From Eretmocerus hayati (Eukaryota; Arthropoda; Insecta; Hymenoptera; Aphelinidae): 64,000 bases of DNA. The position numbers were made by a program, and so were the translations under genes. The stretch lies in contig CM056744.1 in NCBI GenBank assembly GCA_029851415.1, positions 61,093,172 through 61,157,171 on the forward strand, written 5' to 3'. The notes beneath the pieces are model-generated. The model worked only from the letters and a program-made list of their open reading frames with translations. It was not told the origin of the DNA and ran no database searches. The number at the start of each line of letters is the position of its first letter. Within the stretch, counting starts at the first letter, position 1. Below are positions 21,209 to 47,975 of the stretch, one piece after another.

Positions 21209-21296
21209 TATCGACTGTAGGTAACAGTTTCCCTTGATCACGCCTTGGAAAATTACTATCGCCACATCTTTCGAGCTCTCTGACCATTCATGTGTG
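21209..21296 (+). repeat. repeat B, left part, cut by the LTR element
   Basis: Matches 16,745-16,812 (ATCGACTGTAGGTAACAGTTT, GCCTTGGAAAATTACTATC, CATCTTTCGAGC) up to the TG-rich insertion point. Its continuation lies 24 kb away at 45,533. Confidence 0.9.
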
Positions 21297-22940
21297 TGTG
21301 ACGTCCGTGACAGTCACGTACGTCTTTCGGGTTTGATTATCTGCTTGCCCTCATGCAAGTCCTCGGAAGTGCGCGGGAGCGAGCAGACGACAACGTGGCT
21401 ACGAGGCGCGACGATTTCCATCTTTCTCGCGATCATAGCTCGATGGTATAAATCCTCCTCTCGGGTAGGAAGGGAGACCGCGTGTTTCTGTGGGATGCCC
21501 CTCTCGCGCTGTAGTGTGCCCCTTTCTTGCTCCGATTCTCCATCAATTTCGAAACAGCGATAGATGACTCGTCATCTGAAGAACATTTGCCTATTTTTCG
21601 AACCAATGTTGCCGCAATATTTGAACAAGAACAATAAGAAAACTAGTTGCTAGGCGGAATTTCGGAGCAAGCAGGAAAATATGTTCAACATTTCGACTCG
21701 ATGTCGAAATTCATCGAGGTCATACTTTGAAAATAGTTAAGGCCTATAGCTCGATTACGAAATTACTGAGTCGTATTGCATTAATTTTAAACAAGACAAA
21801 ACTATTGGAATATTGTTAATGTATAAAAGAGATAATTCAATAGGATTCGAGTCCAAGACTATTGATTTCATTATAATTAATTTGAGAAATCAAATCTAAC
21901 GGTTTCTCGGAACAGTATAAAACCTGAGAATGAACATTTTATCTCACGGCGCAATAAGACAAATCCCAAATAACCAATATTTCCCCGAATAGTTTTAAGA
22001 TGAATATTTAGTATTTATGTTTCATATCATGTATGCAAGTGCACATACTTCTACTTAATTTTTGTATTTCATAGGTTATGGTGCGTGTATAATGTGTGCG
22101 CGCAAGTAGTGATTTTCATCTATATATAACCCATTAATTCATATAGTGCATATAAGCTGAATAACAGAAAAATATCTAAAAACTGAGTACTCGGATGAAA
22201 ACCGTATCTGTCGCGCTATCTAGTTTTGGTATCTGAAACCTTAGAATTGACGATTATTGATCGACTGAACACCTAGATCATGTACTCAAGCGTTTGCGCG
22301 GCTCGATCAACGAGTTAAGCGCGCGTGGACTTGAACTTATCGGCCTGCGGGAGGAGAGTCAGCCACTCAGAGAGCCCAATTTCCCTCCGAAAAGTAGGCC
22401 CATTGTTAACCCTATGCACCGCAGAAGGGGGCATGAAATTCGTTCCCTTAAATTCGACTGCGTGGGCGAGCTCTTCCTCTTCTCTCCCGGATCCCGAAAT
22501 CGGCTACAGCTTCTTCTGAGTGGTTACTATCCTGCGCGGCCGTGCCACGCTGTACCCCCAAGAACTTTGAATATAAAAAGTAAGTCTCAAAAATCATTAT
22601 TCAGTTATTTCATTCCCCAAAAATAATTACCTGAATCTACACTACACATATATAATATTAGTGATAATCGAATACTTAGATAGGGAACCTTGCCTCAGGG
22701 GATTAGCCCCAGAAGGCTGGTGCCAACCCGCTTGGACTCGAGCATAGTGCTCGATAAGTTCAGGTGGGCAATGGGAAGATAGAAAGATCATTTCTCGTAA
22801 GTGTCCAAAAGGATTACACGCACAACTCATCATCAAAGGTGGACATTTTTTTTGCAATACGCGCCCCGAGCTAGTGGACGAAAGTCCAGGCTCAAAAACT
22901 AATTACATATATTTATAGTAGCATCACCACCTACTTCACA
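21297..22940 (+). repeat. 5' LTR of the giant element
   Basis: 1,644 bp, starting TGTGACGTCCGTGACAG and ending CCTACTTCACA, so the termini form a TGTGA/TCACA inverted pair. It differs from the 3' LTR at three positions that I found (22,067, 22,447 and 22,615; partners 44,659, 45,039 and 45,207) with no length change. A strong 5' splice-site-like AAAAGTAAGT lies at 22,576-22,585. Short frames inside occur identically in both LTRs and have no family features. Confidence 0.93.
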
Positions 22941-22941
22941 T

Positions 22942-22962
22942 TGGAGGCCCCGGAGGGATTTG
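22942..22962 (+). promoter_or_regulatory. primer-binding site
   Basis: One base after the LTR, the sequence TGGAGGCCCCGGAGGGATTT is the complement of a well-formed tRNA 3' end: CCA, a U discriminator, a seven-base acceptor strand CGGGGCC, a T-stem half CCCTC and a TTCAAAT T-loop. The U discriminator and GGCC acceptor suit a threonine tRNA, but the exact primer is not confirmed. Confidence 0.75.
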
Positions 22963-24290
22963 CGACAAAAAAGAAATTTTTGATGATGAGCGAACCACAA
23001 CTACACAAAACACGATCATTCCCCCTCGTCCTGATCATGTCATTTTCATAAGCAATATTTGCTGGGGTCCGGGGGAGAGAGCACAGACCGCTTTTGTCAG
23101 ATCAGAACTAGTGAGCCATTTTTCATTCAAAATTCAAAATTACGCATGTTGAACGCCACGTACAACTCATGCGCCGACGCAGTTGCACCAGGCACAGCAT
23201 TTTATCTTTCTAGATGCACTCGCTCTAAAATTCACCCGAGTCGCGAGCCGAGTGTCATCACTTTCTCCAGCAGTATAAACGCACAATGAACGAAGCAAGA
23301 AGCTTCATTCAACCGAGCAAGTCCCGAGCTCTTTTGATGCCCGGCGTATACTGGTGAAAAATCATTCTTGAAAATCCCGTGAGCTCTTTTGATGCCCGGT
23401 GTTTATAATCAAAAATTTCCTTGTATGGAAAATTCTCTTGTGAGAATGAAAAGTTTTAAATTAAAGAAAGAAGGAGACAATGCCATAGGCGCAACGTAGA
23501 CAACACCGTCTCCAAGGCGAAGACGCCGCGTGCGAGAGCGCGTGAGCGAGAGTTTTTGGCTTTATGGCCGCGTGAAAAGAAGTTGGAAGATTGAAGTGTT
23601 TTATCTATTTCTGTTATAAAGATAAACGGTGTTCAGATGATTCTATTTTGTGGAAATGAAGGAAGGTTATTGAATTCCAAACGACATTTATCCACATAAT
23701 CGTTATTCGAAATTGTATGTAATCTGAGACCTTGGTGGTCTGAATACGGTGTACAGGAAGGAGGGATTTTTGATAAAACTACAATCCCATTGTTAAATAC
23801 CAATCGCAGTGAATTCCCCATCTCCAAGTTGAATTTCGAGAATGAGAAGTAAAATAATCTGCCTACCAGACGCAACAACCAGACTTGATAGAAGAATTCA
23901 ATTTTTTCCGTCAATATCTGAAATATTTTCTAGAGCAAAAGGATCTGTTTTGTGAATTAATAATAATTGGGTAGCAAATTATGCCTGATTGGTCACCATA
24001 TATGGCGCTTTACCTCAATTCCCTCAAGTAACTGCAAAATTTCATTCCAATAACAAGAAATGAGTAGCAATTTTACCTTGTAGCTCTTTATTTTTGTTGA
24101 AACCCAGAACTTTTAGTAGAAAATTTCCCACAAAGCTTGAAATGAATATTCAAGAGATACGTTATTGAAGTACTCCAACAATTACAAAGGTTACCCTCTG
24201 TGTATTGCTTCATAGCAATAGTTTTGGAGATACAGTCTCATTTTACAGGAACAGAGAACTATTTTTTCTGGAGTTTCCATTTTTGGAACT
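22963..24290. other. leader part of the giant LTR element, non-coding
   Basis: AT-rich sequence without believable genes. A 19-bp direct repeat, GAGCTCTTTTGATGCCCGG, occurs at 23,329 and 23,380, about 50 bp apart. Confidence 0.6.
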
Positions 24291-24299
24291 TTACTACTG

Positions 24300-25985
24300 G
24301 CAAAGAATGATTTTTCCTCCATCAGCCAAAATTCACCTAATTTCAAAACTATCTCATTTAGAGGGCTGAAAATTTGCCCAGCAATTAGTTTTACAGTATT
24401 TCAAAGGATTATTACCTTGTGAACAATCACAACCATTCAGTTTTGAATTTCAATTCTGGAAACTAAAGTAACTTTTAAGAATTATACTATACGGTAGGGG
24501 GGGCCACCCGCCAATGACATAATAATTTCCTCTTCTGGTAACCTAGTGGATGTCATTATGACAAAGTAATGTATCTTGTCATTTAGTTGAGCCACAGAGT
24601 TATTACCCACATATTTGATCCCTTGCAACATCCCTATAGTAGCTGTTTACGCCATTGAGGTAGCCGCTACAACCAGCTTGTATGAAGTTCATAAGCACCA
24701 GCAATAAACTTCCTGATTTTTTCATCACTAATGAATCTACAGTACCTTGGAGGAGCAGGTATTATCCAGAATAATTGACTACCAGTAATAGTTTGAGAGG
24801 AATTTGAAGATTTGAAGTTCAATTTTGGACAAACTTTTTGTTTAGACACCATTCACTGAAAACTCAACCTAGAGATTTGAAATTTTGTGAAAGATTAGTT
24901 CAAGGCCTATTCTAGAAAGTAATTTCTCAGAATTTTGAAATTCCACTCCTAAACCTTTGAATTACCTGAAGTGCATTTCGTCACCAACTAAATAGGTTAT
25001 ATACCATAAGGACCCCATCTAGGGTGTAGCAGAAGAAAGAACTTGTTCCCTCCTCCAACAATTGACATTACAGAGTAACATATTCACCAGCGAGAAGGTT
25101 AGAACTTTTGGACACGCTATTTAATTACCAAACTCGTTCTTTGACTCATTCCCAACATCAAAGAGTCGATGGCGACATACCCATAATAGGTTCCAGAGTA
25201 CCGCCAACACACTTTTCTACCTTTTAGGTACCAAAAGGACTGTCATAGCCTACAGGTACAGAAAACATCTTACATAATACATTTCTAACAGTTATGCCAG
25301 GAATAATTGAAGTTTTAAAGTCAAGTTTTTGTTAACATCTTAGTTTGGCCACAATTCATCCAGTTTTCCAGTTAGAGGTTTGATACTTGGTTCACAGCTA
25401 GCTTTAAGCCTAAACTTGGAAGTAATTTTCCAGATTCTTGAAATTTTACTCCAAACCCTTGAAATTAGTCTAAGAAACTTGAGTTACTTTTGACAGGTTA
25501 TGCACCATAGTGAAGAGGTGGGGAATGAAATCCGCCTTCCTGACAACCCAATACAGATTAAAAGCACAGAATAGCTAGTCCTGAAATGGTAGAGTTTCAC
25601 CGTCATTGGGTGCACCATTTACAATCCCCAGCTCGTCTCTTACAGCTGTTTTCCATTTCCCAGTACGACGGCACAACATGTTTACACTGGATACATGGAC
25701 CCCACTGGAACATTTCCTTGTCTCACCATCACTAGCAGAACTGTACTAGCACAGAGGGACAGAAAATATTTGAGTTTCACCTTTACTAGTAATAATCTAT
25801 GAGAAAATTATAAAATCAGTTTTCAACTTTGAACAATTTTTAATTTGGCCACAACTTATTCAATTTTTGAGATAGAAGTCTAAAACTTGGTGGACAGGTA
25901 GCTTTAGTCAAGATCTCAAAAGTGATTTTTCAGATTTTCATAACTCCACCCCAGACTCAAAATCTAGCCGTAAGAACCTGCACGC
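24300..25985 (+). repeat. degenerate ~500-bp tandem repeat, about three units
   Basis: A block reading roughly TTTAGTTTGGCCACAATTCA, followed by a CTTGGTTCACAG segment and an AATTTTACTCCAAACCCTTGAAA segment, recurs near 24,830-24,960, 25,330-25,465 and 25,830-25,965. Units are strongly diverged. Non-coding. Confidence 0.6.
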
Positions 25986-27892
25986 CTTATTCGCATTATT
26001 CAACCGTCAAGCAGAATACCGACTACATAGCGACAGTTGTGTACACATAAATAATTTTTCTAAAACTGCCATAAAATATCCTCACTCCGCACAAAGTAAG
26101 AGCATGCTTTGCTCCATCAACTGACTGATTCCTAAAAATTGTTCGCGCAAAAACTCGAAAGTCCTTTGCCAACATACAATGGATAGGTTTCACCGTAAGA
26201 GTTACACTACCAGATGTTGAGTGACTGTCCCATGAGTAACAGGTCATAGGATGGAACTATGATGGAATGTAGAGTTCTCTTCCTGCGAGGAGAATTAGGC
26301 ATCTTTGCCTTGTAGCAAATTTCATTTAATATTCTGAATTTGACTCTAGTGTGTACCGTGAATAATTTAAATTTATAGGTTGAAGATTGAACTCGTGAAC
26401 TTTGAGCCATATATTACCTGTTTATTAGGGTGGGGCTCCCCTGCTAGAAATATTCTATTGAAAACAATTGCTCTATAGTCAATACTCCTGAATGAGATTT
26501 CAATTAGATATCTGAAACGCAACTCTGACCTTGGTGTTCATTGATGAATTTCTAACGTGAAGGGGGCTCAATAGTAATGAAAGGTGGAGGGCCTACTTCA
26601 ACCAAGTACTTCCAATTGCTTCATTGCAATTGAGATGAATGCTACTTCGTGATGTTTCATGCTCCTTGCTATATTGATTAATGCGCTTGAATAGACTTCT
26701 GGGGATTGATGAATACTCATTCAATGCGCTTCAATCACGGAACTGCTATTGGATATTTATCACATTCAAGAGATTAAGGGATCGAGTGATTCTCAATCGG
26801 TTCCGAAGCATTGAGAGAGGAGTTTCAATGTATCTGAAAAGCATGTTTGAAGTTCAATCAATTGGATCTAATTTCGCTCAATCGGTTCCGAATGAAGCTA
26901 TATGATTTAATCGGATCCAAGAGAAATCTAGGAGTTGGTGAATGTCATTTAATACCTTCCAATAGGGCCAATCGACCCTTACACTATTGACTAAGGATTC
27001 CCCAATAGTTTCCAATTGGCTTCAATCTCTCGGGAGAGAAAGACGCCAATCGACTCGGACCAGGTTCAAGTGCGGTCAATGGAATCTAATGTCACTCAAT
27101 CGTATTCGATAGGAGGTGAGTTAACCAATGAGTTGAGAGAGAGAGAGAGATTTCAATAGACCTGAAAAGCGCGTATGAAATTCAGTCAATTGGATCTAAT
27201 TACGCCAATTGACTCTACATATAGCTATAGGAATCAATCGGCCTCAAGCGGAAATTAGGAGTTGTTGAATACTCCTCCAATTGCCTTGAGTGGCCACAAG
27301 TACAATTGCGCTACGGTTCTCAATTGGTTCCAATCGACCGTTAGATTGGGGAATCAGTGTATTTCAATGGCACAAGAGAAGTTCAATTAATTGTATTCAA
27401 TCCTCCTCAATCGGTTTCAATTGTAGAATATAAACCAATCGTTCTCAAAAGGAATTCAGGGATTAGTGAATGGTAATCCAATCGTCTTCAATTGCGAATA
27501 AATACGGCCGGGTCCCTCGCAGATGCATCAATGTCAGTCAATTGGAGCAAACCAATCGTTGCTCTATTAGTGAATAACTGTTGAATGTTTCCCAATGGGT
27601 TTCAATCTACGGTGAGATCTAATTGGATTGAATCGGATGTAAAAACGTCGTACTATTGAATCGAGAAAAAAAATTTCTGTACTTTGTTTTTGATTCTTAT
27701 TTCGGTTAGTATGCTTACGGGTGATCATATTCATATTATATATCTTATTGATCATTATTTGTTTATATACTTCATCAATTTTTTAAGATAGTTTTTAATC
27801 ATCGGATATTCGTGGATATATTTATTCTGAAAGAAATGTTATAATTCAATTTTTATTAATTAATGAAAAAATCGATGAATAATTTTTACCTT

Positions 27893-27964
27893 TGACGGGA
27901 TTTGAACCTGCGACCTCTGGATTACGGGACAGCGACGTTGACCACTCGACCATTCTGCTCATGT
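27893..27964 (-). other. tRNA-derived sequence (threonine-like), degenerate
   Basis: On the minus strand there is a B-box-like GCAGGTTCAAATCCC, an A-box-like TGGTCGAGTGG and an anticodon-loop-like CCCGTAA similar to threonine tRNA (CGU). The acceptor ends do not pair and the anticodon stem has mismatches, so it is not a functional tRNA. It probably descends from a tRNA or a tRNA-headed SINE. Confidence 0.5.
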
Positions 27965-30290
27965 CAGAGTTGGGCAATAACACGCATAAGATCAACGTGG
28001 GCTAGTTGAATGAGATTCAATGGGCTCTGATACAGTTAACTGAATCGGGACGAATCGGCGTTGATCGCCCATGAGACTATTCATCTCTTGCGTCACGGAA
28101 TGTCACGAACGGAATCATCTCACTGTTGGTCAATCGCTTCCAATGGTGCAAACAACCCAAAAATATATTCAACTGACATAAACCATGTTCGATTTAATCG
28201 ATTTCAATTGATTCCAATCGCCAACCCGCTCACTCCGCAATATGATTCGATCGCCTACACTGCTATCCATCTGTTGCAATACGAAGTGTCGCGGAAGGAA
28301 TGAATTTTTGGGCAATCGCTTCCAATGGTCAAACGCGACATTGGAATTTATGTGATGCCAATCAATCCAAATATGTTGAAACGACCAATCATATTCAATC
28401 GACATAAAACAAATACGTTTCAATCGACTTTAGTCGGTTTCAATCGCAAACTCGCTCACTCCTCAATATTATTCAATCGCCTGCTTCACTATTCATTTCA
28501 TGCATTACCGAATGTTGCTAACAGGATGATGTTGATTTATTGGCCAATTGCTTCCAACGGTCGAACGTGACATTGAACCTAATACAGTAGTAATTAATCT
28601 GAATGAGTTCATCCAATCAATCGTAATCATTTGCTAGAACCAATCTCGTTTGAATCGACTTCAATCGGTTTCAATCGCCAACCCGCTCACCCCTCAATAT
28701 TATTCAATCACCTAAACGGCTATTCATCTCTTGCACTACTCGATGATGCAAACGGAATGATTGGGGTATCGGCCAATCTCTTCCAATGGTCAAACGCGAA
28801 ATTGAATTTTATGTGATGCCGATCCATCCAAATATGTTGAAACGACCAATCATATTCAATTGACATAAAACAAATACCTTCCAATCGACTCTAGTCAGTT
28901 TCAATCGCAAACTCACTCACTTCTCAATATTATTCAACCGCCTGCTTCACTATTCATTTCATGCATTACCGAATGTTGCTAACAGAATGATGTTGGTTTA
29001 TTGGCCAATTGCTTCCAATGGTCGAACGTGAGATTGAACTTAATACAGTAGGAATTAATCTGAATGAGTTCATCCGATCAATCGTAATCAATTTCGAGAA
29101 CCAATCCCGTTTGAATCGAATTCAATCGGTTTCAATCGGTTTCAATCGCCAACCCGCTCACCCCGCAATATTATTCAATCACCTAAACGGCTATTCATCT
29201 CTTGCGCTACTCGATGATGCGAACGGAATGATGGGGGTATTGGCCAATCGCTTCCAATGGTCAAACGCGACATTGAATTTTATGTGATGCCGCTCCATCC
29301 AAATATGTTGAAACGACCAATCATATTCGATTACATAAAACAAGTACGTTTCAATCGACTCTAGTCAGTTTCAATCGCAAACTCGCTCACTTCTCAATAT
29401 TATTCAATCGCCTGCTTGACTATTCATTTCATGCATTACCGAATGTTGCTAACAGAATGGTGTTGGTTCATTGGCTAATTGCTTCCAATGTTCGAACGTG
29501 ACATTGAATTTAATACAGTAAGAATCAATCTGAATGAGTTCATCCGATCAATCGTAATCAATTGCATGAACCAAGCCCGTTTGAATCGACTTCAATCGGT
29601 TTCAATCGCCAACCCGCCCACCCCTCGATATAATCCAATCACCTAAACGGCTATTCATCTCTTGCATTACTCGATGATGCGAACGAAATAATGGGGGCAT
29701 TGGCCAATCGCTTCCAATGGTGGAAAATGACATTGTAATTCATGCAACTGAAATTGAGCCATATAAGTGCATATGATGGCCAATCATATCCAATGGACAT
29801 AGTACATGTTCGTTCCAATCGACTTCAATCGGTTCCAATCGCTGATAAGACTCTCACAGTATTATCCAATCATTTATGAGGTTGTCCACTTCCTGGAATG
29901 CGAAATGTCACGAACAGAATCGGACCGCTATTGGCAAATCGATCCCAATAGTCAAAAGTGACATTGAAATTCATGCAATGGGAATCAATCTAAATGAGTT
30001 TATACGACCAATCATAACCATCTGACATGAACCATGTTCGGTTCAGTTGACTTTAATCGGTTCCAATCCCCAAGTCACTTACTCCGCAATATCATTCAAT
30101 CGCCTATATGGCTATTCGTTCCTTCATTACTTGTTGACGCGAACGAAATGATGGTGGTAATGGCCAATCGCATCCAATGGTGAAAAAAGACATTGAACCT
30201 CGTGCAACTGAAATCGACCGAAAAAGTGTATATGATAATCAATCATATCCAATCGACATAGAGCACGTTCATTTCAATCGACTTTAGTCG

Positions 30291-31285
30291 CCCAGCTGAA
30301 AATATATACGTATCCCGATGCGCGGCTTGGTGCGTATTGGGGCACGTATGGCGCAGCGTATTGCAGCGCGCAGTGTAGCGCGGAGAATCCGGGTCGATAA
30401 TCCCGGGCGTCCCAATACGCATCTCCATACGTGCCAACGCTTCAGAGTGAAAGTATATTGGTGACGCCCCTGTGGGCCGTGGGCCGTAGGCGAGCGGGGA
30501 AGCTTTATATATATAATGCATGCCACGTGATATCTCGTTAGCGCGCCCATTGCATGTGCCCATACTACCCATACGCGTCCCAATACACGTTCCAATACGT
30601 GCCTCGACCAGCTATATAAAACCAACTCAGCTAGGCAACTCTTGCCTTTGACCGATAGGTGGCTGCTAGGTTTCTGATCCTGCACGAGAATTTTTCATGA
30701 TTTCCGACATACTCCCATCTGAGATTCTTCAAAAATAGGTCATGAAGTCCTCTTATTACTTTGAAGGTGATAATGTTTGATCTAATAGGATGTCACATTA
30801 CCTGAACAAACGTTATTAACCTCATAGAGATAAGAGGACTTCATGACCTATTTTTGGAGAATCTCAGATGAGAGTATGTCGGAAACCATGAAGAATTTTC
30901 GTGCAGGATCAAAAACGTAGCAGCCACCTATCGGTCAAAGGCATGAGTTGCATAGCTGAGTTGGTTTTATATAGCTGGTCGAGGCACGTATTGGAATGTG
31001 TATTGGAACGCGTATGGGCACATGTATGGGCGCGCGAACGAAATACCACGTGGCATGCACTATATATAAATAAAGCTTCCCGGCTCGACTGCGGCCCACG
31101 GCCCACAGGGGCGTCACCATTACTTCCACTCCGAAGCGCTGGCACGTATGGAGATGCGTATTGGGACGCCCGGGATTATCGACCCGGATCCTCCGCGCTA
31201 CACTGCGCGCTGCAATACGCTGCGCCATACGTGCCCCAATACGCACCAAGCCGCGCATGGGGATACGTATATATTTTCAGCTGGG
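30291..31285. mobile_element. foldback element inserted in the satellite, 995 bp
   Basis: Ends are CCCAGCTGAAAATATATACG and its complement, with CG on both flanks (30,289-30,290; 31,286-31,287). The satellite sequence reads through cleanly when the insert is removed. The arms (~450 bp each) are highly similar and GC-richer than the host array, with repeated ACGTATTGG/CCAATACG strings. They meet near 30,788, where GAAGTCCTCTTATTACTTTG and its near complement form an inner hairpin. Frames on both strands mirror each other and are not genes. Confidence 0.88.
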
Positions 31286-33079
31286 CGGTTTCAATCGCAA
31301 ACTCGCTCACTCCTCAATATTATTCAATCGCCTGCTTGACTATTCCATTCATGCATTACTGAAAGTTGCCAATAAGATGATGTTGGTTTATTGGCCAATT
31401 GCTTCCAATGGTCGAACGTGACATTGAACTTTATACAGTAGGAATCAATCTAAATGAGTTTATACGATCAATCGTAATCAATTGCATGGACCAAGCCTGT
31501 TTGAATCGACTTCAAATCGGTTTCCATTGCCAACTCGCTCACCCCTCAATATTATTCAATCACCTCAACGGCTATTCATCTCTTGCATTGCTCGATGATG
31601 CGAACGGAATGAAGGGGGTATTGGCCAATCGCTTCCAATGGTGAGAAGTGACATTGAAATTCATGCAACCGAAATTTAGGCAAATGAGTGCATATGATGA
31701 CCAATCATATCCGATCGACATAGTACATGTTCGATTCAATCGAGTTCAATCGCTGATAAGACTCTCGCAATATTATCCAATCACCTATGAGGCTGTCCAC
31801 TCCCTGAAATTCGAAATGTCACAAACAGAATCAAACCGCTATTGGCAAATCGATCCCAATAGTCAAAAGTGACATTGAAATTCATGCAATGGGAATCAAT
31901 CTAAATGAGTTTATACGACCAATCATAACCATCTGACATGAACCATGTTCGGTTTAATTGACTTTAATCGGTTCCAATCCCTAAGTCGCTTACTCCGCAA
32001 TATCATTCGATCGCCTATACGGCTATTTGTTTCTTGCATTACTCAATGACGGGAACAGAATGATGGTGGTAATGGCCAATCGCTTCCAATGGTGAAAAGT
32101 GACTTTGGACTCTATGCAATAATTTGAATCAAGGAGTTCATACGACCAACCATATCAAATTGATATGGACCAACTCCGGTTTAATCGACTCCAATTGGTT
32201 TCAATCCCCAAGTCACTCGCTCTTTAATATTATTCAATCGCCTGCGCGACTATTCACTTCGTGCATAACCAAATGTCGCAAACTGAATGGTGGCGCTATA
32301 TTGGCCAACCGCTTCCAAAGGAAAGAAATGTACACTGTACTGTGTGCGACGTGGAGTGATGTGATTGCATTCAACTATATTCGGAACAAGTGGAAGATGT
32401 ACCAATCGACTTTTCTTAATATTATCCAAACATCTATACCGCTTTTTCAACATTTGATTCACAAATTACCACGAATAGAATGATGCCACTACCGGTCCAT
32501 CGTTCTCAGCTTCAAAGATAACATTAACCATCGTGCAATAGAAATCAAACCTAATGATTTAATGTGACCGATAATATCCAATTGACATAAATCAAGTTCG
32601 GCCCAATCGCCCTCAATCGCCTTCAATCAGTTCCAGTCGCCAATTTGTTCACACCTTAGTATTATCAAATCTCCTACACGACCATTTATCTCTTGCATTA
32701 CTGAATGTGGAGAATGCAATAATGGCACCATTGGCAAATTGCTCCCAATGGTAAGAAGTGATATCAGACTGTGTGTAACGGGTATGAGCTTAATTGCACT
32801 CAACCAATCACATTTCTATCCAATTGTCATGAGTCAAATTCGGTTTAATTGATTCGAATGGCTTCAATCGACAACTTGCTCACTTTCAAGTATCATTTAC
32901 CGCCTATACGGGTAATCATGCAACTCTATAGTCTTTCTGCAACAGAAGTCAACCTAATGGAGTTGATCCGATGAAACATCATCAAAAAACATGAATCAAA
33001 TCCGAACACTTCAATATCTTCCAATTCCCAACTCGACCACTCCTTAATATCATTCAATCGGCTATGTGGGTGTTCCCCG

Positions 33080-36000
33080 AAGAAAGTGAACTAGTCAGCG
33101 ATTGACGCCGATTGGAGTCGATTGGAACGATTTTGATTCATGTCGATTAAATATTATTGGGAGAATGAACGCGATAGGTCAGTACCCGTCAAATACTGTC
33201 TAATATCATGAGCACTTTTAGAAACAATCAACCAATAGCGACATCGTATCATCAATAACCATTCGTAATCAGAGACATAGAAAGCCGTGCGTACCATTCA
33301 ATGGCATTGAAGAGTGAACTAGTCAGCAATCGACGCCGATTGAAGGCAATTGGATCGATTTTGTTTCATGTCGATTGAATATTATTGGGAAAATGAACGC
33401 AATCAGGTCGACAAGCGTCGAAACTGTTCAATATCATGAACACCCTTGGGAACGATTGACCAATAGCGGCTCATAGCCATGTTTGATCAGCGCCATGAAT
33501 GGCCGTACATGCCATTGAACGACATTGAAGAGTCACCTAGTCAGTCATTGGAACCGATTGAAGTCGATTGGTACGAATTTGATCCATGTCGATTAGATAT
33601 TATTGAAAAAATAAACGTGATCAGGTCAGTACACGTCAGCACAGTCTAATATCATGAATACCTTTGGGGACGATTGACCAATAGCGGCGTCGTTGAGTTC
33701 ATAGCCTAAAGATGGTGCCATGAATGGCCGTACGTACCATTGATCGACATTGGAGAGTCACCTAGTCAGTCATTGGAACCGATTGAAGTCGATTGGTGCT
33801 ACCTTGACTCATGTCGATTGAAAACTATTGCAGAAACAAATGCAATGAGTCAGTATCCGCTCAACATCTAAATTAGCTCCCCGTCCTTTTGAACGATTCC
33901 CCAATAGCGGCATTGTTTTGTCTATACTTATTCGTATCCCGAGCGATGAATAGTCGTAGGTATCATTGAATGACATTGAGAAGTAAATTAGTCAGCGATT
34001 GAAATCAATTGAAGTATATTGGGACGAATTTGACTCAAGACGATTGAATACTATTGCAGAAGTGAACGCAATAAGCCAGTATACGGTCAACACCTTCTGA
34101 ATAACCTTTCCACCCTGGGGAACGATTCTTCAAAAGCGGCATTGTTTTGTCTTTACTTATTCGGATCCCGAGCGATGAATAGTCGTAGGTATCATTGAAT
34201 GACATTGAGAAGTAAATTAGTCAGCGATTGAAATCAATTGAAGTATATTGGGACGAATTTGACTCATGTCGATTGGATACTATTGCAGGAATGAATGCAT
34301 GGGGTCAGTATCCGGTCAACACCTCCTCAATTACCTTCCCGCCCTTGGGAACGATTCCCCAATAGCGGCGTTGTTTTGTCTATACTAATTAATATCCCGA
34401 GCGATGGATAGCCGTAGGTATCATTGAATGACATTGAGAAGTAAACTAGTCGACGATTGAAACCGATTGAAGTATATTAGGACGAATTTGACTCATGTCA
34501 ATGAAACACTATTGCAGAAGTGAACGCAATAGGCCAGTATACGGTCGACACCTTCTAAATAACCTTTCCACCCTTGGAAACGATTCTTCAATAGCGGCAT
34601 GGTTTTGTCTTTACTTATTCGGATCCCGAGCGATGAATAGTCGTAGGTATCATTAAATGACATTGAGAAGTAAATTAGTCGACGATTGAAACCCATTGGA
34701 GTATATTGGGACGAATTTGACTCATGTCGATTGAATACTTTTGCAGAAACAAATGCAATAAGTCAGAGTCCGGTCAACACCTTGATTACCTCCCCGCCCT
34801 TGGGAACGATTCCCCAAGAGCGGCATTGTTTTGTCTATACTTATTCGTATCCCAAGCGATGAATAGCCGTAGGTATCATTAAATGACATTGAGACGTAAA
34901 TTAGTCGACGATTGAAACCGATTGAGGTATATTATTAAGACGAATTTGACTCATGTCGATTGAATACTATTGCAAAAATTAATGCAATAGGTCAGTATCC
35001 GGTCAACACCTTCTAAATAACCTTTCCACCCTTGGGAACGATTCTTCAATAGCGTCATTGTTTTGTCTTCACTCATCCGGATCCCGAGCGGTGAATAGTC
35101 GTAGGTATCATTAAATGACATTGAGAAGTAAATTAGTCAGCGATTGAAATCAATTGAAGTATATTGGGATCCCACGACGAATTTGACTCAAGACGATTGA
35201 ATACTATTGCAGAAGTGAACGCAATAAGCCAGTATACGGTCAACACCTTCTAAATAACCTTTCCACCCTTGGGAACGATTCTTCAATAGCGTCATTGTTT
35301 TGTCTTCACTCATCCGGATCCCGAGCGATGAATAGTCGTAGGTATCATTGAATGACATTGAGAAGTAAATTAGTCGACGATTGAAACCCATTGAAGTATA
35401 TTAGGACGAATTTGACTCATGTCGATTGAGTACTATTGCAGAAAAGAATGCAATGAGTCAGTATCCGGTCATAACACTTTAATTACCTCCCCGCCCTTGG
35501 GAACGATTCCCCAATAGCGGCATTGTTTTGTCTATACTTATTCGTATCCCAAGCGATGAATGGCCGCAGGTATCATTAAATAACATTGAGACGTAAATTA
35601 GTCGACGATTGAAACCGATTGAGGTATATTAGGACGAATTTGACTCATGTCGATTGAATACTATTGCAGAAGTGAATGCAATAGGTCAGTATCCGGTCAA
35701 CACCTCCTCAATTACCTTCCCGCCCTTGGGAACGATTCCCCAATAGCGGCATCGTTTTGTCTTTACTTATTTGTATCCCGAGCGATGAATAGCCATAGGT
35801 ATCATTAGATGACATTGAGAAGTAAATTAGTCAGCGATTAGAGCCGACTAAATGATATTGGATTGAATTTGATCCATGTCCGTTGATCATGATTGGATGG
35901 TCGAATGTCATTCTTCATCCTTAGAAACGATTCGGCAATCCTGGCATCAATGTTGTTCGCGGGGGTCCCTCGATTGAATCAATAGACGATTCCGCATTGA

Positions 36001-36350
36001 AAAACATTACCGTCGATGCCTTTCTTGAGTAGCATTGGATCGTCTCTAAATCTAATTAAATCATCTCGAATTGAGTAGGATTGGTGAATACCTATTATTG
36101 TCATACATTACTTGAAAGATTCCATCAGCCACACGTCGCATTGAAACCTTTAGAACACTATTCAAGCAATATCTCTGCGTCATATTCGGAACAGTTCGAG
36201 ATACTTTGAAATAGAGTCCGATTCATTCTGATTGGATGTACCATTGGCCCAATCGCATCGATCTATTGGAGCGATAGGATTCCGTTCGATCCAATTCAAT
36301 CCAATAGGATTTCAATTGTTTCCAATGAACTGTTTCTAGCAGGGATCTGA
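33080..36350 (-). repeat. ~230-bp satellite array, minus orientation, inside the LTR element
   Basis: CCCCAATAGCGGCATTGTTTTG-type cores (in full or degenerate form) recur about every 230 bp (near 33,898, 34,130, 34,360, 34,592, 34,818, 35,045, 35,283, 35,511 and 35,741). The units are the reverse complement of those at 1-625 and of the 26.5-33.0 kb array, so orientation switches at about 33,075. Units from 35,880 to 36,350 are degenerate. Confidence 0.88.
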
Positions 36351-36757
36351 CTTATTTACTAGGATTTCGATTCCTAACCAACAAAAATAGGGCAGATGAT
36401 CAGTATAATGGTATAATTTTAAATTTTTAAAGTCTGTGAGTACTGTTTTACCTAACCCACAGGATTTTATTCATGAATTGGTTTCCAAGACCGAAAACTG
36501 TTCCATAAGCAAAGAAAACTGAAGGCTGGACAAAATTAACTCTGTTTATAACAATTGTTCACCATTTTATCGGAAGATAGGGGAGGAAATTTTCTGTTCT
36601 CCTCTCATTCATTTCTCTAATTTTCAAACTTTGACGAAACCCCAAGCAGAAAAATACGATAACATTTTTTTTTTATCCAGAGGCGACAAATTTCCATTAG
36701 AACTCTTACTTTTGCTAGGTTTGTAAAGATCCAATCAGTTGATATTACGATTCTAAG

Positions 36758-37924
36758 ATGAGTGAGAATAAGGAGTTAAGACATACGTTACAAGTTGCTA
36801 TTTCTATTATCCCAGAATTCGATGGAGGCAATAATTTGAGTGTCGACGAATTTTTCGACGAATGCGATGAAGCTATTTCGATAGCGGAGTCGATCCCCGA
36901 AGAAACCCTTGTAAAAATTATAAAAACAAAACTGAGAGGCGAAGCGCGTCGATGTTATATATCTCAACATTTTACCACATACCAAGAGTTCAAAATTTCC
37001 TTGTACAATACTTTTAGAAGTTGCAAATCAATATCAGAATTGATTGGAGAACTGGGACAGCTTTACCAACGAGAAGAAGAGAGCATAATTTCTTTTTCCA
37101 ATAAAATTCGAAAAATTGGACGTCAATTGACGAACGTATCACAGTGCGAAAATATTTTTAACGAGCATTTCCAAAGTTTGGTCGAAAATGTAATGCTAGA
37201 CTCCTTTCTCAACGGACTTTTGCCTAGTATATCAATTTATTTCAAAGTTAAACCAAAAAGCTTTAATGAATCTGTTTCCACAGCTCTTAGATTTGTTCGA
37301 GGTTATAGATCTCCTGTGACCCCACAGCGAAGTGAAATAGTAACTCCCAAAGAATCACGGGACTCAGATCAAGAACTAGATCTAGATACATGCATCGCAC
37401 CTTTGATGTGTGGATCAAAATCAGAGCACATTCATTCATTTTCTACAGAGATAACTCAAGCGGAAGAATTAGAACAAGTGGATGGAAAGGTTCCAATAAA
37501 AATGGATCATTCAAACCTCACACTAGATTCACTACCCCAGGCTAATAAGGCGCACGCCAATTTTTTGCCAACCACTCCCATTGCAGTTCTTGCTACTCAC
37601 GTGAATCATGATTTGATGAAGAGATCAAATCTCTATCCCAGTCCCGCTTTGAGCATGTTGCTATATCGGTTTGAAACCAGTCCATCATTGCAGTTTTTCG
37701 ATCCACAAAACCTTACAATTGTCTACGGTATTACAAGATCCCAATCTCCCAAAACTTATTTGTCTCGAGTTTACCGAAGCTCCCGAACCCGATTTAAGAG
37801 ACTGCTCACCAAACACTTAAGCCTAACGAACGCCTTGACAGGCCTTGACAGATCAGCAACCCTACTGAAAGAGGCCGAGTCGGTGACCGAGACGGTTGAC
37901 CGAGTCGGGGTACGGAGTCGGTGA
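36758..37924 (+). CDS. gag: gag-type protein 1, C-terminus replaced by a foldback insertion
   Basis: From ATG 36,758, residues about 8-185 form a retrotransposon gag domain of the Ty3/gypsy kind. It opens with an IPEFDGGNNLSVDEFFDECD block, then GEARRCYIS, then a long helical stretch QLYQREEESIISFSNKIRK and a conserved LNGLLPSIS segment. Such proteins assemble the capsid-like particle and package element RNA in the cytoplasm. Residues from about 368 on (after 37,860) are encoded by the inserted foldback element, so the natural end is lost. No zinc knuckle is present in what remains. The family is clear; function is doubtful. Confidence 0.75.
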   Translation: MSENKELRHTLQVAISIIPEFDGGNNLSVDEFFDECDEAISIAESIPEETLVKIIKTKLRGEARRCYISQHFTTYQEFKISLYNTFRSCKSISELIGELGQLYQREEESIISFSNKIRKIGRQLTNVSQCENIFNEHFQSLVENVMLDSFLNGLLPSISIYFKVKPKSFNESVSTALRFVRGYRSPVTPQRSEIVTPKESRDSDQELDLDTCIAPLMCGSKSEHIHSFSTEITQAEELEQVDGKVPIKMDHSNLTLDSLPQANKAHANFLPTTPIAVLATHVNHDLMKRSNLYPSPALSMLLYRFETSPSLQFFDPQNLTIVYGITRSQSPKTYLSRVYRSSRTRFKRLLTKHLSLTNALTGLDRSATLLKEAESVTETVDRVGVRSR

Positions 37925-38079
37925 CTGTTTCGGTTTACCGACTCGGTCACTTCGCATGGAATGGTCCCAGATGCCACGAAACGAACAATAAATGATAAAT
38001 TATCGTCAGAGGTTAATAGAAAAATTGAAAAAAAATAGAAAAAAACATGCCCGGCTATTTTCACAATTTTGACGCGCGT

Positions 38080-38155
38080 GGGATTCGAACCTGCAATCTC
38101 TTGCTTACGAGTCCAAGCACATGTGCCCGGGGCCAGCGGGACATGTTACGAGAGA
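38080..38155 (-). other. tRNA-derived segment, left arm
   Basis: The minus strand shows ATTGCAGGTTCGAATCCCAC, a good Pol III B box with T-arm context, preceded by CTCGTAA, the anticodon loop of threonine tRNA (CGU). D-arm and acceptor pairing are missing. The mirror copy is at 38,734-38,809 on the plus strand. Confidence 0.55.
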
Positions 38156-38733
38156 GAGCTTAGTGAGCGTACTTGGAGTGTGACTCATAGGGAGTACCTA
38201 AGATCTGTTCATCATCAGTTTTATCATGAGTTGATCATAAACTCTGGCGCCAGAGCACTGAGTCAAGCCGTAGCTAGGATGGGACTTGGAATATTTCTAG
38301 ATCTGGCTGCTTGACCGAGTCGGTTGACCGAGTCGGTCAACCGAATTCAAATTTTCACGGGGAAGCAACACGCATAGGACTTGGGAATTTCCGAGATTTG
38401 GCTGGTTAACTACCGACACGGTACACCGACTCGGTCAACCGAATCCAAATTTTCACGGGAAAAGTAACACCGAGTCGGTTAACCAGTCAAATTTTGAAAA
38501 TTTTCCTAGTTTTATGCGTGTTGCTTTCCCGCGAAAATTTGAATTCGGTTGACCGACTCGGTCAACCGACTCGGTCAAGCAGCCAGATCTAGAAATATTC
38601 CAAGTCCCATCCTAGCTACGGCTTGACTCAGTGCTCTGGCGCCAGAGTTTATGATCAACTCATGATAAAACTGATGATGAACAGATCTTAGGTACTCCCT
38701 ATGAGTCACACTCCAAGTACGCTCACTAAGCTC

Positions 38734-38809
38734 TCTCTCGTAACATGTCCCGCTGGCCCCGGGCACATGTGCTTGGACTCGTAAGCAAGAGATTGCAGGT
38801 TCGAATCCC
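38734..38809 (+). other. tRNA-derived segment, right arm
   Basis: Mirror image of the left-arm segment, with the same B box and anticodon-loop-like string. The two are divergent, both reading outward from the element centre. Confidence 0.55.
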
Positions 38810-39029
38810 ACGCGCGTCAAAATTGTGAAAATAGCCGGGCATGTTTTTTTCTATTCTTTTTCAATTTTTCTATTAACCTCTGACGATAATTTATCATTTA
38901 TTGTTCGTTTCGTGGCATTTGGGACCATTCCATGCGAAGTGACCGAGTCGGTAAACCGAAACAGTCACCGACTCCGTACACCGACTCGGTCAACCGTCTC
39001 GGTCACCGACTCGGCCTCTTTCAGTAGGG

Positions 39030-39946: not shown

Positions 39947-40906
39947 ATGGCACATCAAGTTCTCATATTACAAGAGATACTCAAAGAAGTACCGGACTTC
40001 ACGGGGTCGAATATACCTTTGAGTCAATTCATTCATGACTGGGATAAAGCAGAGGAAATATGGATCGACGCCTGTAAAGCTATCTTTGCTCAATCACTGC
40101 TGTCAAAAATTTCTGGAGAAGCCAGAACATCGATCAGTGGTCAGAGATTTGAGTCTGCAAAAGCCATCAAAGAACATTTAAAGAGTCTTTATGCTCTCAA
40201 TAAAACCACGCAACAACTTATGGCCGAAGTCGAACATGAATTTCAACGAGATGAAGAGAGTGCGGCCTCGTTCATCTACAGGATGAGAAAACTAAACAAC
40301 CAGATCAAAGAAGCGAGAAAGATCGAAGTTGGAGAAGATGAGGCTTTCGATGTTGACACTGAGGCCAAAGTATTGGAGTACACGAAGCGAGGTTTGAATT
40401 CTGCAATCACGCAGAAAATATTCCAAGCAAAAACCATGGACGATCTTATTACCAGAACTCGGCGATCAAGGCAACGACGTGCCCCAAGGAACAGTGACTG
40501 CCCTGAAGAAGAACAAGATCGGACCACCGAAAGCTGCAGGGAGACTAGTCATTCAATTGACCTTTGTCTCGGAAGCGCAGAGACCGAAGCTGAAGGCCAC
40601 ATATCATGCCAGCCATGTAAGGAACCGATCCTGGACGTGAAGAATCGAATTATGGCAACATCGGCCAAAATTCCAACCTCAACGATGGGTCCGAGACATG
40701 CCGTGTACCTGGATCCAGGACAGTGTCCCAATGTTTTTCCAGCCGAGACCTGTTTCTACTGCAAGAAACCTGGACATCGCATCGCGGAATGCTGGAAACG
40801 CATTTACAAGAATGCGAAAGCGCAAAGAGATGCTCGAAATATTTCAACATCGAACGGGTCAGAGGCAGTTAGGATCTTATCCTTCCGCACCTCTGCCACC
40901 AATTAA
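39947..40906 (+). CDS. gag: gag-type protein 2 with CCHC zinc knuckle
   Basis: 319 residues from ATG 39,947. Residues about 8-170 repeat the gag domain layout of gag 1 (VPDFTGSNIPLSQFIHDWDKAE, ISGEARTSISG, EFQRDEESAASFIYRMRKL, YTKRGLNSAI) with low but clear similarity. A basic linker (RTRRSRQRRAPR, near residue 170-180) leads to a zinc knuckle, CFYCKKPGHRIAEC, with C269, C272, H277 and C282 (CX2CX4HX4C), which binds element RNA. The frame is intact and ends 21 residues after the last of several basic residues that follow the knuckle. No protease or polymerase follows in any frame. It could be the working gag of this element or a captured second gag. Confidence 0.82.
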   Translation: MAHQVLILQEILKEVPDFTGSNIPLSQFIHDWDKAEEIWIDACKAIFAQSLLSKISGEARTSISGQRFESAKAIKEHLKSLYALNKTTQQLMAEVEHEFQRDEESAASFIYRMRKLNNQIKEARKIEVGEDEAFDVDTEAKVLEYTKRGLNSAITQKIFQAKTMDDLITRTRRSRQRRAPRNSDCPEEEQDRTTESCRETSHSIDLCLGSAETEAEGHISCQPCKEPILDVKNRIMATSAKIPTSTMGPRHAVYLDPGQCPNVFPAETCFYCKKPGHRIAECWKRIYKNAKAQRDARNISTSNGSEAVRILSFRTSATN

Positions 40907-41850
40907 AACACTCATCCACACCATTAAGTTCTCGTCCCATCATTACACAACACACAGTCGATAGGTATTGAACAGCCAGTGACGGACCAAAATTCAATTT
41001 TAACTTACAAAGGAATGACGTCCACAAAGGCGTAGAAATACTCCCATTGTACACAATCCAGTCATTCATCAGCCAAAAGATTGGAAAAAAAATTCACGAA
41101 TAACATAGATTAAGAAATCATAGAACTATCAAAATTAATCTTGATATTCCCCCTATTTTCAGGTACGTGCAGCCCCTTAAATTGAATTGATCTTTTGGTT
41201 AGTCGTGACTCAGTTTAGAACCCAAGACCTCATATGGCTTCGGAAAGGGTTGTGTATTTTTCATGCAGTAAACATGTTGGCACAGAAAGACTTAGTATAC
41301 TAAATAAATATTCGAACCAATTGCTACAACCACGTCCTTGCCGATCTTTGGAAATACAAAAAAAACTCTTGATTTTCCTTACAAGTTTTTTTTTCAACTA
41401 CCATGTTGAAAACCTGAAGCGAATTTCTTAAAAAAACATTTCAAAATCACTACGAGTCACGACTAACCCTGTAAGGTATAGTAATTGACAGCTCAGGGAC
41501 AATGCCCAATGCACCCCAATCGTTTTGAGCAAGTAAACTAGAAACTACCCATAACTCCAGTAACCACGTTCGACCTCATTTTAACCATATAACTTTTGAA
41601 AAAAAAAAGGGTTAAAGCTCGTAAAGAAAAAAATTTTCCTCTATCTATCCCTTGAAGAAGGGTTATGGAAATAGATAAAATTATTCATACTGCCACCATA
41701 TCATCTAAATCGTATTCGTTTCATTTCATTGTGACAAATATGAATGAATATGAACTAAAGTCCTTTGAACAGTCTGTTACAGAAACATGGAATGATTAAT
41801 CATTTATCACGAGCTCTCCTATTCCCCAAGAAAAAAAAAAAACATTGGCG
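40907..41850. other. non-coding, nothing recognised
   Basis: AT-rich sequence downstream of gag 2. No protease, polymerase or integrase motif was found in the six frames. Confidence 0.5.
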
Positions 41851-42560
41851 ATGATAGTTACCCTGGCTACGATGTTGGCTGTTGGTCCCAATTTCTACCA
41901 TGAGGTTAATCGAGTACGTTTGGCGCCCCTGCTTTTCGAATGTACTAAATTTATCCCGATCGAACGTGAACGAGCCTGATATTGCCAACGATGACAACAA
42001 AACCAGCGACGTCTAGTTACAACTACCCAATTCCACGAATTTTTTTCGAAATCGTAGCTGTGCAATACAAGGCAGAAAATACCCTTAATATATCCAGCTG
42101 CGGTACGTCCAATAGCATCTCAGCCGTATACACTGCAGCAGTAACAAACACGGATTGAATTGGATCCACAAAATATGTTATAATGTGCGCCGTACTGGAA
42201 TTTCAGTGTTTTCTGGCCCTTGAATCATCAGCGGACTAAAATTGATAAAAATCCGACCGAACAGGTTGTTTGATTGCGGAACGTGATTATGACTATCGCT
42301 CTAACGGTATTAAACGCAAATTTTTGAATGATAAAAACCAGATTATACTAGAGTCCGGAACAGCACACCCTTCAACTGATGGAAATTGCCTGAACATGAC
42401 GGGAGGGTGTTCGATTTGGAAACCCCTTTCTCACGATTCGTGCGATTTCAATCATTATAGTGTAGTTAATATTAAGATAATGGTAGATATTAGAATAGAA
42501 GAAGATTTATATTTCATATCCCGAGTGTCTGGCTTTTGGCCCCGTCCCGGCTTATATTGA
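41851..42560 (+). pseudogene. possible glycoprotein (envelope-like) remnant, broken
   Basis: ATG 41,851 opens a 42-codon frame with a hydrophobic start resembling a signal peptide and stops at 41,977. Further open segments follow in other frames (to about 42,160, and about 42,246-42,560). The last contains cysteines and potential N-glycosylation sites (GNCLNMTGGC, SIWKPLSHDSC), a look typical of secreted or viral-type surface proteins. Its position downstream of gag and just before the 3' LTR is where env genes of insect LTR elements sit. At least two frame breaks are present. Identification is tentative. Confidence 0.35.
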
Positions 42561-43880
42561 AATGGGAAATGCGGAAACTATTCACCAAGTGACTCCTTCA
42601 TTGATAATGTACCCCACTTAATGGCTGAGGCATCTATACCACCTGAGCACACCGCCGCGCGAACGGAGCATCCCCGAATAATTATCTCTAAACGCGAAAG
42701 AGATGTGAGGTTCCGCGAATACACTCTGAGAGATGGATAGAGTCGCAATTCAGGCTATGGAGAGACAACGTGCCGACCAGTCGACGCAACTTCCAACGGT
42801 TGATACTTAAAAACGCTCTTTCGATCGTTACGTCATCCCCAGATGAACTCCCCAACAACTTGATAAAAAGACTAGTTTCCAGAACAATTTCCCATATTAT
42901 AGAATGCACTCTCCAAAACCAAACATAGTGCTATATGCTACGCCGAACTTCAGGTGACCGTTAACAATCAAACTTCGTTTCACCATTCAAAAATACATGG
43001 CATTTGTGAGAATAGATGGATTGAAACATCACGTAACACACTTCCATGTGCTACTTCGTGGAAGTCGAGTGGTATGAGATCACGCCACCGCTCAATGAAG
43101 CCAATATCCTGAAGGTTATCGTTCACTCACAATACCAAAGTGTGTGAGTCCGAGAGCCCTCGCAAATCCGGAGTTGAAACTACTGGAGACCCAAACCACC
43201 TCGGAAAAGGCTCACGTTCCCACCCAAAAAGCCCCCTAATTGATCTGGACAGAGAAATGCACAAACAACAATAATTTAACTCTCGGTGTAGGGTTTTCAA
43301 GCTACTCAATGAAAATACTATCTCGGATCGACACCTCAATGCAAACTTGTATCGTTTTTGAACTTTGACACTGCTGAGATCCAGTTCACTGCGATCTATC
43401 ACGCTAAGCACCTCCAATGGAGTGATAAGAACTTTTCCTTGATGGAATACTCTCCAGTCGGTTGTCGGCCAGTCACTCCACTTGTCAAGAACCGTTTCGA
43501 GTTCCTCGGCTTGTTATCTACCAGTACCTTGCCGAAAACCGCCAGGACCTATAAGAACCAATCTTAACTCCAACCTCGGGCCAACCCTCTGCCCGTAACC
43601 AAATCTACCGAACTCTGTTCATTCCACCCGACCATAAGGTCGGCAGAGTATCTACTTGCAGCTCCGAGCATACGAACATTTCTCCCAAATTTCCCCAACG
43701 CTATTCGTACTTCTGTGGTCCCAAACACATATTTTGACGCTCCATTTCCCGCTCGATGACACATCCCAGATCAGTAATTCTTCCCTAACAACCTCATCCC
43801 GGGGATCGGTAACCTCGTTAGGAGCCGAGGTAGACGTTTTCGCTTGTTTAATTACATTAACCAGACGAAAACGTTTTAAG
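42561..43880. other. 3' internal region of the LTR element, unassigned
   Basis: Several frames of 66-96 codons lie on both strands without recognisable domains. No polymerase or integrase motif was seen. Confidence 0.5.
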
Positions 43881-43888
43881 TCGTGGGG
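43881..43888 (+). promoter_or_regulatory. weak polypurine tract
   Basis: The bases directly before the 3' LTR read TCGTGGGG, ending in four G. This is a short plus-strand primer candidate, weaker than the usual long purine run. Confidence 0.4.
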
Positions 43889-45532
43889 TGTGACGTCCGT
43901 GACAGTCACGTACGTCTTTCGGGTTTGATTATCTGCTTGCCCTCATGCAAGTCCTCGGAAGTGCGCGGGAGCGAGCAGACGACAACGTGGCTACGAGGCG
44001 CGACGATTTCCATCTTTCTCGCGATCATAGCTCGATGGTATAAATCCTCCTCTCGGGTAGGAAGGGAGACCGCGTGTTTCTGTGGGATGCCCCTCTCGCG
44101 CTGTAGTGTGCCCCTTTCTTGCTCCGATTCTCCATCAATTTCGAAACAGCGATAGATGACTCGTCATCTGAAGAACATTTGCCTATTTTTCGAACCAATG
44201 TTGCCGCAATATTTGAACAAGAACAATAAGAAAACTAGTTGCTAGGCGGAATTTCGGAGCAAGCAGGAAAATATGTTCAACATTTCGACTCGATGTCGAA
44301 ATTCATCGAGGTCATACTTTGAAAATAGTTAAGGCCTATAGCTCGATTACGAAATTACTGAGTCGTATTGCATTAATTTTAAACAAGACAAAACTATTGG
44401 AATATTGTTAATGTATAAAAGAGATAATTCAATAGGATTCGAGTCCAAGACTATTGATTTCATTATAATTAATTTGAGAAATCAAATCTAACGGTTTCTC
44501 GGAACAGTATAAAACCTGAGAATGAACATTTTATCTCACGGCGCAATAAGACAAATCCCAAATAACCAATATTTCCCCGAATAGTTTTAAGATGAATATT
44601 TAGTATTTATGTTTCATATCATGTATGCAAGTGCACATACTTCTACTTAATTTTTGTACTTCATAGGTTATGGTGCGTGTATAATGTGTGCGCGCAAGTA
44701 GTGATTTTCATCTATATATAACCCATTAATTCATATAGTGCATATAAGCTGAATAACAGAAAAATATCTAAAAACTGAGTACTCGGATGAAAACCGTATC
44801 TGTCGCGCTATCTAGTTTTGGTATCTGAAACCTTAGAATTGACGATTATTGATCGACTGAACACCTAGATCATGTACTCAAGCGTTTGCGCGGCTCGATC
44901 AACGAGTTAAGCGCGCGTGGACTTGAACTTATCGGCCTGCGGGAGGAGAGTCAGCCACTCAGAGAGCCCAATTTCCCTCCGAAAAGTAGGCCCATTGTTA
45001 ACCCTATGCACCGCAGAAGGGGGCATGAAATTCGTTCCTTTAAATTCGACTGCGTGGGCGAGCTCTTCCTCTTCTCTCCCGGATCCCGAAATCGGCTACA
45101 GCTTCTTCTGAGTGGTTACTATCCTGCGCGGCCGTGCCACGCTGTACCCCCAAGAACTTTGAATATAAAAAGTAAGTCTCAAAAATCATTATTCAGTTAT
45201 TTCATTACCCAAAAATAATTACCTGAATCTACACTACACATATATAATATTAGTGATAATCGAATACTTAGATAGGGAACCTTGCCTCAGGGGATTAGCC
45301 CCAGAAGGCTGGTGCCAACCCGCTTGGACTCGAGCATAGTGCTCGATAAGTTCAGGTGGGCAATGGGAAGATAGAAAGATCATTTCTCGTAAGTGTCCAA
45401 AAGGATTACACGCACAACTCATCATCAAAGGTGGACATTTTTTTTGCAATACGCGCCCCGAGCTAGTGGACGAAAGTCCAGGCTCAAAAACTAATTACAT
45501 ATATTTATAGTAGCATCACCACCTACTTCACA
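43889..45532 (+). repeat. 3' LTR of the giant element
   Basis: Same length as the 5' LTR (1,644 bp), differing at 44,659, 45,039 and 45,207 as far as I can see by eye. It is followed by TGTG and then by the right part of repeat B. Confidence 0.93.
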
Positions 45533-47961: not shown

Positions 47962-47975
47962 ATGATTTGAATTTT
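47962..47975 (+). repeat. 14-bp direct repeat, left border of the array
   Basis: ATGATTTGAATTTT, repeated exactly at 58,817-58,830 on the other side of the whole array. It is a possible target-site duplication. Confidence 0.7.

Follow-up and report, generated by a model that had tools for sequence, protein, structure and literature searches.

A young long terminal repeat (LTR) retroelement interrupted by two unrelated insertions was identified at positions 21297 to 45532 of a 64,000-nucleotide stretch from the hymenopteran insect Eretmocerus hayati (assembly GCA_029851415.1, contig CM056744.1, positions 61,093,172 to 61,157,171; the whole stretch is hereafter called the window). We read this feature, with a probability of about 0.7, as one copy of a non-autonomous LTR family of about 13.2 kb, which arose by loss of pol from a lineage of gypsy-type endogenous retroviruses carrying two gag genes and an envelope gene, and which uses the enzymes of pol-bearing relatives. 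Given the order gag1, gag2, reverse transcriptase (RT) and envelope at seven other loci, the family looks like a pol-deleted, envelope-decayed derivative that kept both gags. The original prediction, made from the window alone, had described a giant 24.2-kb element without polymerase, living on the enzymes of another element.

The structure of the element is summarized in Table 1. The two LTRs differ at LTR positions 771, 1151 and 1319 (alignment of the 5' with the 3' LTR), and carry the ends TGTGA...TCACA, in agreement with the TG...CA termini of Ty3/gypsy-type elements. The LTRs, their ends and the TGTG on both sides were thus as the original prediction had them, as was the sequence resembling a primer-binding site (PBS) directly after the 5' LTR. 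A chance origin of the LTRs was rejected on the basis of 3 mismatches in 1,644 bp and many near-identical matches in the genome. The PBS-like pattern, with up to three mismatches allowed, occurs at 11 places in the genome including the window copy, six of which are copies of the family. The long 5' leader holds no frame of more than 98 aa in the frame scan; siblings show small differences of its length near 23.3 and 24.7 kb, and one of the five siblings read (L018) has no match to 22941-23324 and aligns from 23.3 kb on.

Table 1. Positions within the window of the LTR element, its parts and associated sequences.
Feature	Position	Strand	Remarks
Uninterrupted paralogue of the repeat that hosts the element	16741..17349		88-89% to the two flanks
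Target-site duplication TGTG, left copy	21293..21296		flank comparison
5' LTR	21297..22940	+	1,644 bp; 3 mismatches to the 3' LTR
Long 5' leader	22941..26438	+	colinear in 5/5 sibling interiors read
PBS-like sequence TGGAGGCCCCGGAGGGATTTG	22942..22962	+	placed by sequence, directly after the 5' LTR
Nested insertion 1	26439..36344		about 9.9 kb; ends CCCTGCTAGAAA...TTTCTAGCAGGG; empty site in siblings
Satellite arrays in insertion 1	28189-32318 and 33082-35880		
gag1	36758..37858	+	367 codons until insertion 2 interrupts the frame near its 3' end
Nested insertion 2	37860..39029		palindrome of about 1.17 kb; ends CCCTACTGAAAGAGG; AA on each side
gag2	39947..40906	+	319 aa; one CCHC-type zinc knuckle
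Decayed envelope, Monjiviricetes_fusion type	42330..43544	+	colinear with residues 192-613 of the open frame of a relative; many stops
GTTTTAAGTCGTGGGG, position of the polypurine tract (PPT)	43873..43888	+	adjoins the 3' LTR; purines in the last bases only; nearly the same in a relative
3' LTR	43889..45532	+	1,644 bp
Target-site duplication TGTG, right copy	45533..45536		flank comparison

The genome (692 Mb in 17 contigs) was searched for other copies with the same LTR, as had been proposed. At least 49 matches were obtained (best 40 of 76 candidates scored), and full-length matches at 99-100% identity, both window LTRs included, numbered at least 21. Besides the window pair, whose LTRs start 22.6 kb apart, at least eight full-length pairs were detected with a start-to-start spacing of 11.7-12.1 kb. 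The interiors of five of eight such pairs were read, and all five are colinear with the window at 22.3-26.4 kb, 36.3-37.9 kb and 39.0-44.4 kb, while lacking both 26439-36344 and 37860-39029. Pieces longer than 650 bases are 96-99.5% identical to the window; identities as low as 86% occur in short pieces from the AT-rich end that follows insertion 2. The empty sites of both insertions are visible in the two siblings displayed. The size of 24.2 kb therefore results from the nesting of two unrelated insertions, which make up about 11.1 kb of the interior, within an element of about 13,163 bp; the mobile unit does not have the internal part of more than 20 kb by which giant LTR elements are recognized. 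That a 24.2-kb element moved as a single unit, as was originally proposed, does agree with the near-identical LTRs that enclose this length, but is hardly credible in view of both blocks being missing from all siblings read, the spacing of the other LTR pairs, and the recurrence at 40 places of the dispersed repeat with which the first block opens. With only one window to go by, nested insertions can be mistaken for a giant element.

The right boundary of insertion 1 was placed by reading the junction and its left end by recurrence throughout the genome. Its first kilobase is present at 40 places including the window, giving 41 alignments, 39 of which begin at query base 1 and the other two at bases 2 and 77, indicating that the left end is the terminus of a dispersed repeat. 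The two ends of insertion 1 are inverted relative to each other; the flanking duplication is imperfect, CTC on one side and ATC on the other, which fits awkwardly. Insertion 2 is self-complementary at 94% over its length. The array of insertion 1 with units of about 227 bp was also found, reversed, at positions 1-628 of the window.

The family has, as far as its sequences tell, moved recently. The LTR pair of one sibling is identical over 1,643 bp and that of another differs by a single 1-base gap, and 4-bp target duplications were read for these two siblings (CCAT and GCGT). Together with the near-identical window pair, the close similarity of the siblings and the 4-bp duplication in the window, these data bear out the original view of a young LTR element. 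Two of three solo LTRs are flanked by GTTT and GTAC, and the third reads 5 bp, ATGTC. The window copy was inserted into a dispersed repeat. Now that it carries 11 kb of inserted DNA, it has probably lost its mobility. The sibling at C1:94.30 Mb has an awkward neighbour: immediately beyond its 3' LTR lies an RT of the gypsy type (35% identical), which we read as part of a neighbouring element.

No polymerase was detected. With the RT-RNase H of a related element of the same genome as query, the window remained without a match up to E 1, and inside the sibling pieces no match reached an E below 0.1. The protease and the F-type envelope used as queries had no match at E 1e-3, either in the window or in the three sibling pieces searched. 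Nor was RT present at the nine family loci among the matches listed (best 91 of 4,912 candidates scored). The absence of protease, RT and RNase H claimed originally thus holds by these queries, while integrase, the remaining member of the enzyme set, had no query of its own. A degraded polymerase was rejected, since the RT and protease queries found no match and the interior frames other than that of gag1 are rich in stops (about 4-8% of codons). Because neither RT nor protease was found in the window or the sibling pieces, the family is classified as a non-autonomous derivative rather than an autonomous Ty3/gypsy member. Pol-bearing relatives exist in the same genome, and the dependence of the family on the enzymes of other elements, also part of the original prediction, gains support from both observations; RT and integrase are probably borrowed.

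Two gag-type frames had been predicted, and both were confirmed, at 36758-37924 and 39947-40906. The first of these runs into insertion 2; in the five siblings read, gag1 continues for 13-28 residues more, this extension varying among copies. In the genome search, both frames are without stops in all nine family copies, with identities of 96-100% for gag1 and 98-100% for gag2. Gag1 and Gag2 align at 27% identity over 149 residues (E 2e-13) and are by this alignment paralogues. Gag1 is capsid-like, with Ty3_capsid and Retrotrans_gag matches in Pfam and no zinc knuckle found, while Gag2 is capsid-like and has in addition a zinc knuckle (zf-CCHC). Both are homologous to gag frames lying upstream of Ty3-like RT, as expected for Gag of the gypsy type. 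None of the 777 candidates in a protein search with gag2 reached E 0.001. Against solved structures, gag1 gave no match up to E 1 and gag2 gave nine, the best at E 0.027.

Downstream of gag2, the original prediction had overlooked the remnant of an envelope gene. One frame matches PF24664 (Monjiviricetes_fusion) above the cut-off at E 2.8e-7, and the remnant is of equal length in the six copies compared, one in the window and five in siblings, all of which have 10-25 stops per frame, indicating that the decay preceded the separation of these copies. The intact env of envelope-bearing gypsy elements is therefore not present.

Genome matches to gag1, gag2 and the envelope gene env2 were paired. 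The pairing covered 88 of 113 gag1, 61 of 128 gag2 and 51 of 63 env2 matches, the others being mostly weaker; four of the 88 were better matched by gag2, so that 84 gag1 matches were paired. For the placement of RT, 15 of 92 RT matches were used (best 91 of 4,912 candidates scored). Among the matches listed, 32 of 84 gag1 matches are followed on their own strand by gag2, env2 or both: nine belong to the family, eight represent four older, broken loci with two matches each, and 15 are others. The complete order gag1-gag2-RT-env2 was found at no fewer than seven of the loci listed (C4:56.89, C2:130.05, C1:104.72, C3:114.73, C2:176.34, C4:54.43 and C1:115.69 Mb), and gag1-gag2-RT at one more (C3:84.04 Mb). 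The matched stretches contain no stops at four of the seven ordered loci and one or two at the other three. By a rough estimate assuming uniform placement, about 0.1 gag1-gag2 neighbours would be expected by chance. The distance from gag2 to env2 is 7.1-7.5 kb in 18 of the 34 paired loci listed, with a range of 4.3-11.3 kb, the values of 4.3 and 5.2 kb belonging to two loci at C3:153 Mb with no RT match; in the window element it is about 1.8 kb (extrapolated). The closest unbroken full-length Gag2 outside the family, at C3:64.08 Mb (53% over residues 1-171), is followed by an open RT-RNase H frame (RVT_1, E 5e-36) and then by an envelope; solved relatives of this RT-RNase H include Ty3 Gag-Pol (E 5e-82).

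At four loci (C4:56886174, C1:104724262, C2:130050720 and C3:84043944), a distance of 19-26 kb separates gag1 from gag2 on the same strand; RT comes after gag2 in all four and env2 in three. These loci may be very large two-gag elements or nested ones; nested insertions could hide in such spacing.

A relative at C3:153.36 Mb (C3:153355500-153368400) has the PBS and the PPT region in common with the family, as well as the first 11 bases of the LTR. It carries a frame resembling Gag2, in which three stretches match zinc knuckles (zf-CCHC), a weak protease match, two envelope frames, one of Baculo_F (E 9e-18) and the other of Monjiviricetes type (E 8e-213), and two frames of 467 and 269 aa for which Pfam gave nothing above the cut-off. 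These envelope types make an arthropod host likely. Neither an RT frame nor an RT match was detected in this relative, and among the matches listed there was no RT at a second place, C3:153.50 Mb. Awkwardly, the 3' LTR of the relative at C3:153.36 Mb follows the end of its 5' LTR for 194 bases and diverges from there on.

Selection on the gags was assessed by a substitution test with a neutral non-synonymous share of 0.747 and kappa 2. Among nine copies, gag1 shows 26 non-synonymous and 20 synonymous changes (p 0.005), with 12 and 13 in its capsid half (p 0.003); among seven distinct copies, gag2 shows 4 and 5 (p 0.045). The corresponding omega values are 0.44 for gag1 and 0.26 for gag2. Across six copies, variable sites amount to 9 of 957 in gag2, 42 of 1,101 in gag1 and 89 of 2,883 downstream (gag2 by Fisher test, p 1e-4 against downstream and 2e-5 against gag1). 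These values suggest that both gags are under purifying selection. An unlikely alternative is that the family is a passive parasite, for which a partner supplies Gag as well and the gag frames are leftovers that have not yet decayed. The youth of the family, with 0-3 differences per LTR pair, and the lack of significant constraint on the C-terminal half of gag1 are in line with such a view, but the omega values count against it, as do the two gags that are open in all nine copies next to an envelope full of stops in all six compared. The word parasite in the original prediction is thus apt for a young element without pol that needs the enzymes of others, but probably not in the sense of mere passivity, since the gags have stayed open and their amino-acid changes fall short of the expected number. 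In known systems, a truncated or surplus Gag can have a dominant effect on related particles, and the gags might be kept for restraining pol-bearing relatives through mixed particles. Many related RT-bearing elements are indeed present in the genome, but selection for spreading suffices to explain the open gags, and we regard this alternative as very improbable.

Several observations weigh against the derivation from a two-gag ancestor with borrowed enzymes and retained gags. A majority of the listed gag1 matches (52 of 84) are without a partner, so that not every gag1-like frame can be assigned to a two-gag layout, and the gag1 matches outside the family that are paired with gag2, RT or env2 are only 31-45% identical to the gag1 of the window, with partial coverage. 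The Pfam matches of both gags are all under the curated cut-offs, and AlphaFold2 models built from single sequences, with a mean pLDDT of 31 and 37, were of no use. With respect to selection, the C-terminal half of gag1 (14 non-synonymous against 7 synonymous changes, p 0.30) shows no significant constraint, the gag2 test rests on 9 changes and the assumed kappa, gene conversion could likewise reduce variation, and sites are not fully independent because the copies are related. Finally, the relative sharing the LTR tips, at C3:153.36 Mb, is itself without RT and is not proven as a partner.

According to the pol-deletion reading, an internal deletion most likely removed pol from a two-gag ancestor, and the envelope would have decayed before the compared copies separated. 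RNA driven from the LTR would supply Gag1 and Gag2 and may be packaged into particles for which both Gags could be needed. Reverse transcription and integration would then be carried out by enzymes that pol-bearing relatives provide in trans, through the shared PBS, PPT region and LTR tips. The window copy would have integrated recently into the dispersed repeat and afterwards received the two unrelated insertions.

More tentatively, we propose that some gypsy-type endogenous retroviruses of this genome form a lineage with two separate paralogous gags, RT and a Monjiviricetes-type envelope, in which both gags are kept when pol or env is lost or borrowed, suggesting a particle built from two Gags with divided roles. 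The first gag of this lineage would be without a zinc knuckle and would precede the second by about 5 kb or about 19-26 kb. If this holds, the window family is a natural deletion experiment on a two-gag element. It could then be tested directly whether two distinct capsid-type proteins can be necessary for a retroelement particle, and which functions have to come from the LTR element itself and which others can supply.

Among known systems, the TR-GAG elements of plants consist of LTRs and gag without pol, a composition that the window element shares; it differs by its two paralogous gags, the decayed envelope, the animal-type genome and the RT-bearing two-gag relatives. LARD elements also rely on the enzymes of other elements, and neither LARD nor TRIM elements are known to carry coding frames. 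The window element, with two open gags, differs from both and does not have the lack of coding capacity that marks LARD. For TRIM elements, reliance on the enzymes of others is described in one report (PMC10886601). Another presents Burro of planarians and Ogre of plants as large gypsy-type elements with extra coding capacity (PMC6431247), whereas the element described here is about 13 kb without its nested insertions and has no pol and two separate gag frames. With the envelope-bearing Ty3/gypsy elements, or insect endogenous retroviruses, the relatives of this lineage share the order gag, RT and env, but the lineage differs by a second, upstream gag, and one relative has envelopes of both F and Monjiviricetes type. 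Type III fusion glycoproteins of gypsy elements (PMC13172572) and an F-type Envelope (PMC12992720) have been described. A further study reports that in Hymenoptera and other orders gypsy fragments are numerous near glycoproteins of the Jingchuvirales type, but found no clear evidence of capture by gypsy (PMC10084718). In the open-access literature, nothing on point was found for two-gag LTR elements by the terms used.

A related LTR type shares only the first 239 bases (74%) and the last 687 bases (86-92%) of the family LTR, and was found at a minimum of seven places among the matches listed. One of these places, at C2:87.33 Mb (8 kb), has no frame longer than 179 aa, and a further stretch (L056) none longer than 149 aa. 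Elsewhere in the window, an RT frame is located outside the element at 63127-63999 on the minus strand (RVT_1, E 2.7e-33), where the gypsy-type RT query gave no match. An Rfam scan of 16000-60000 detected nothing beyond 24 tRNAs. These belong to 24 copies of a unit of about 428 bp at 47968-58818, each with a tRNA-Ser(GGA) gene; 17 copies on the minus strand are followed by seven on the plus strand, the orientation turning near 55500, and a 300-nt core is identical in 17 direct copies.

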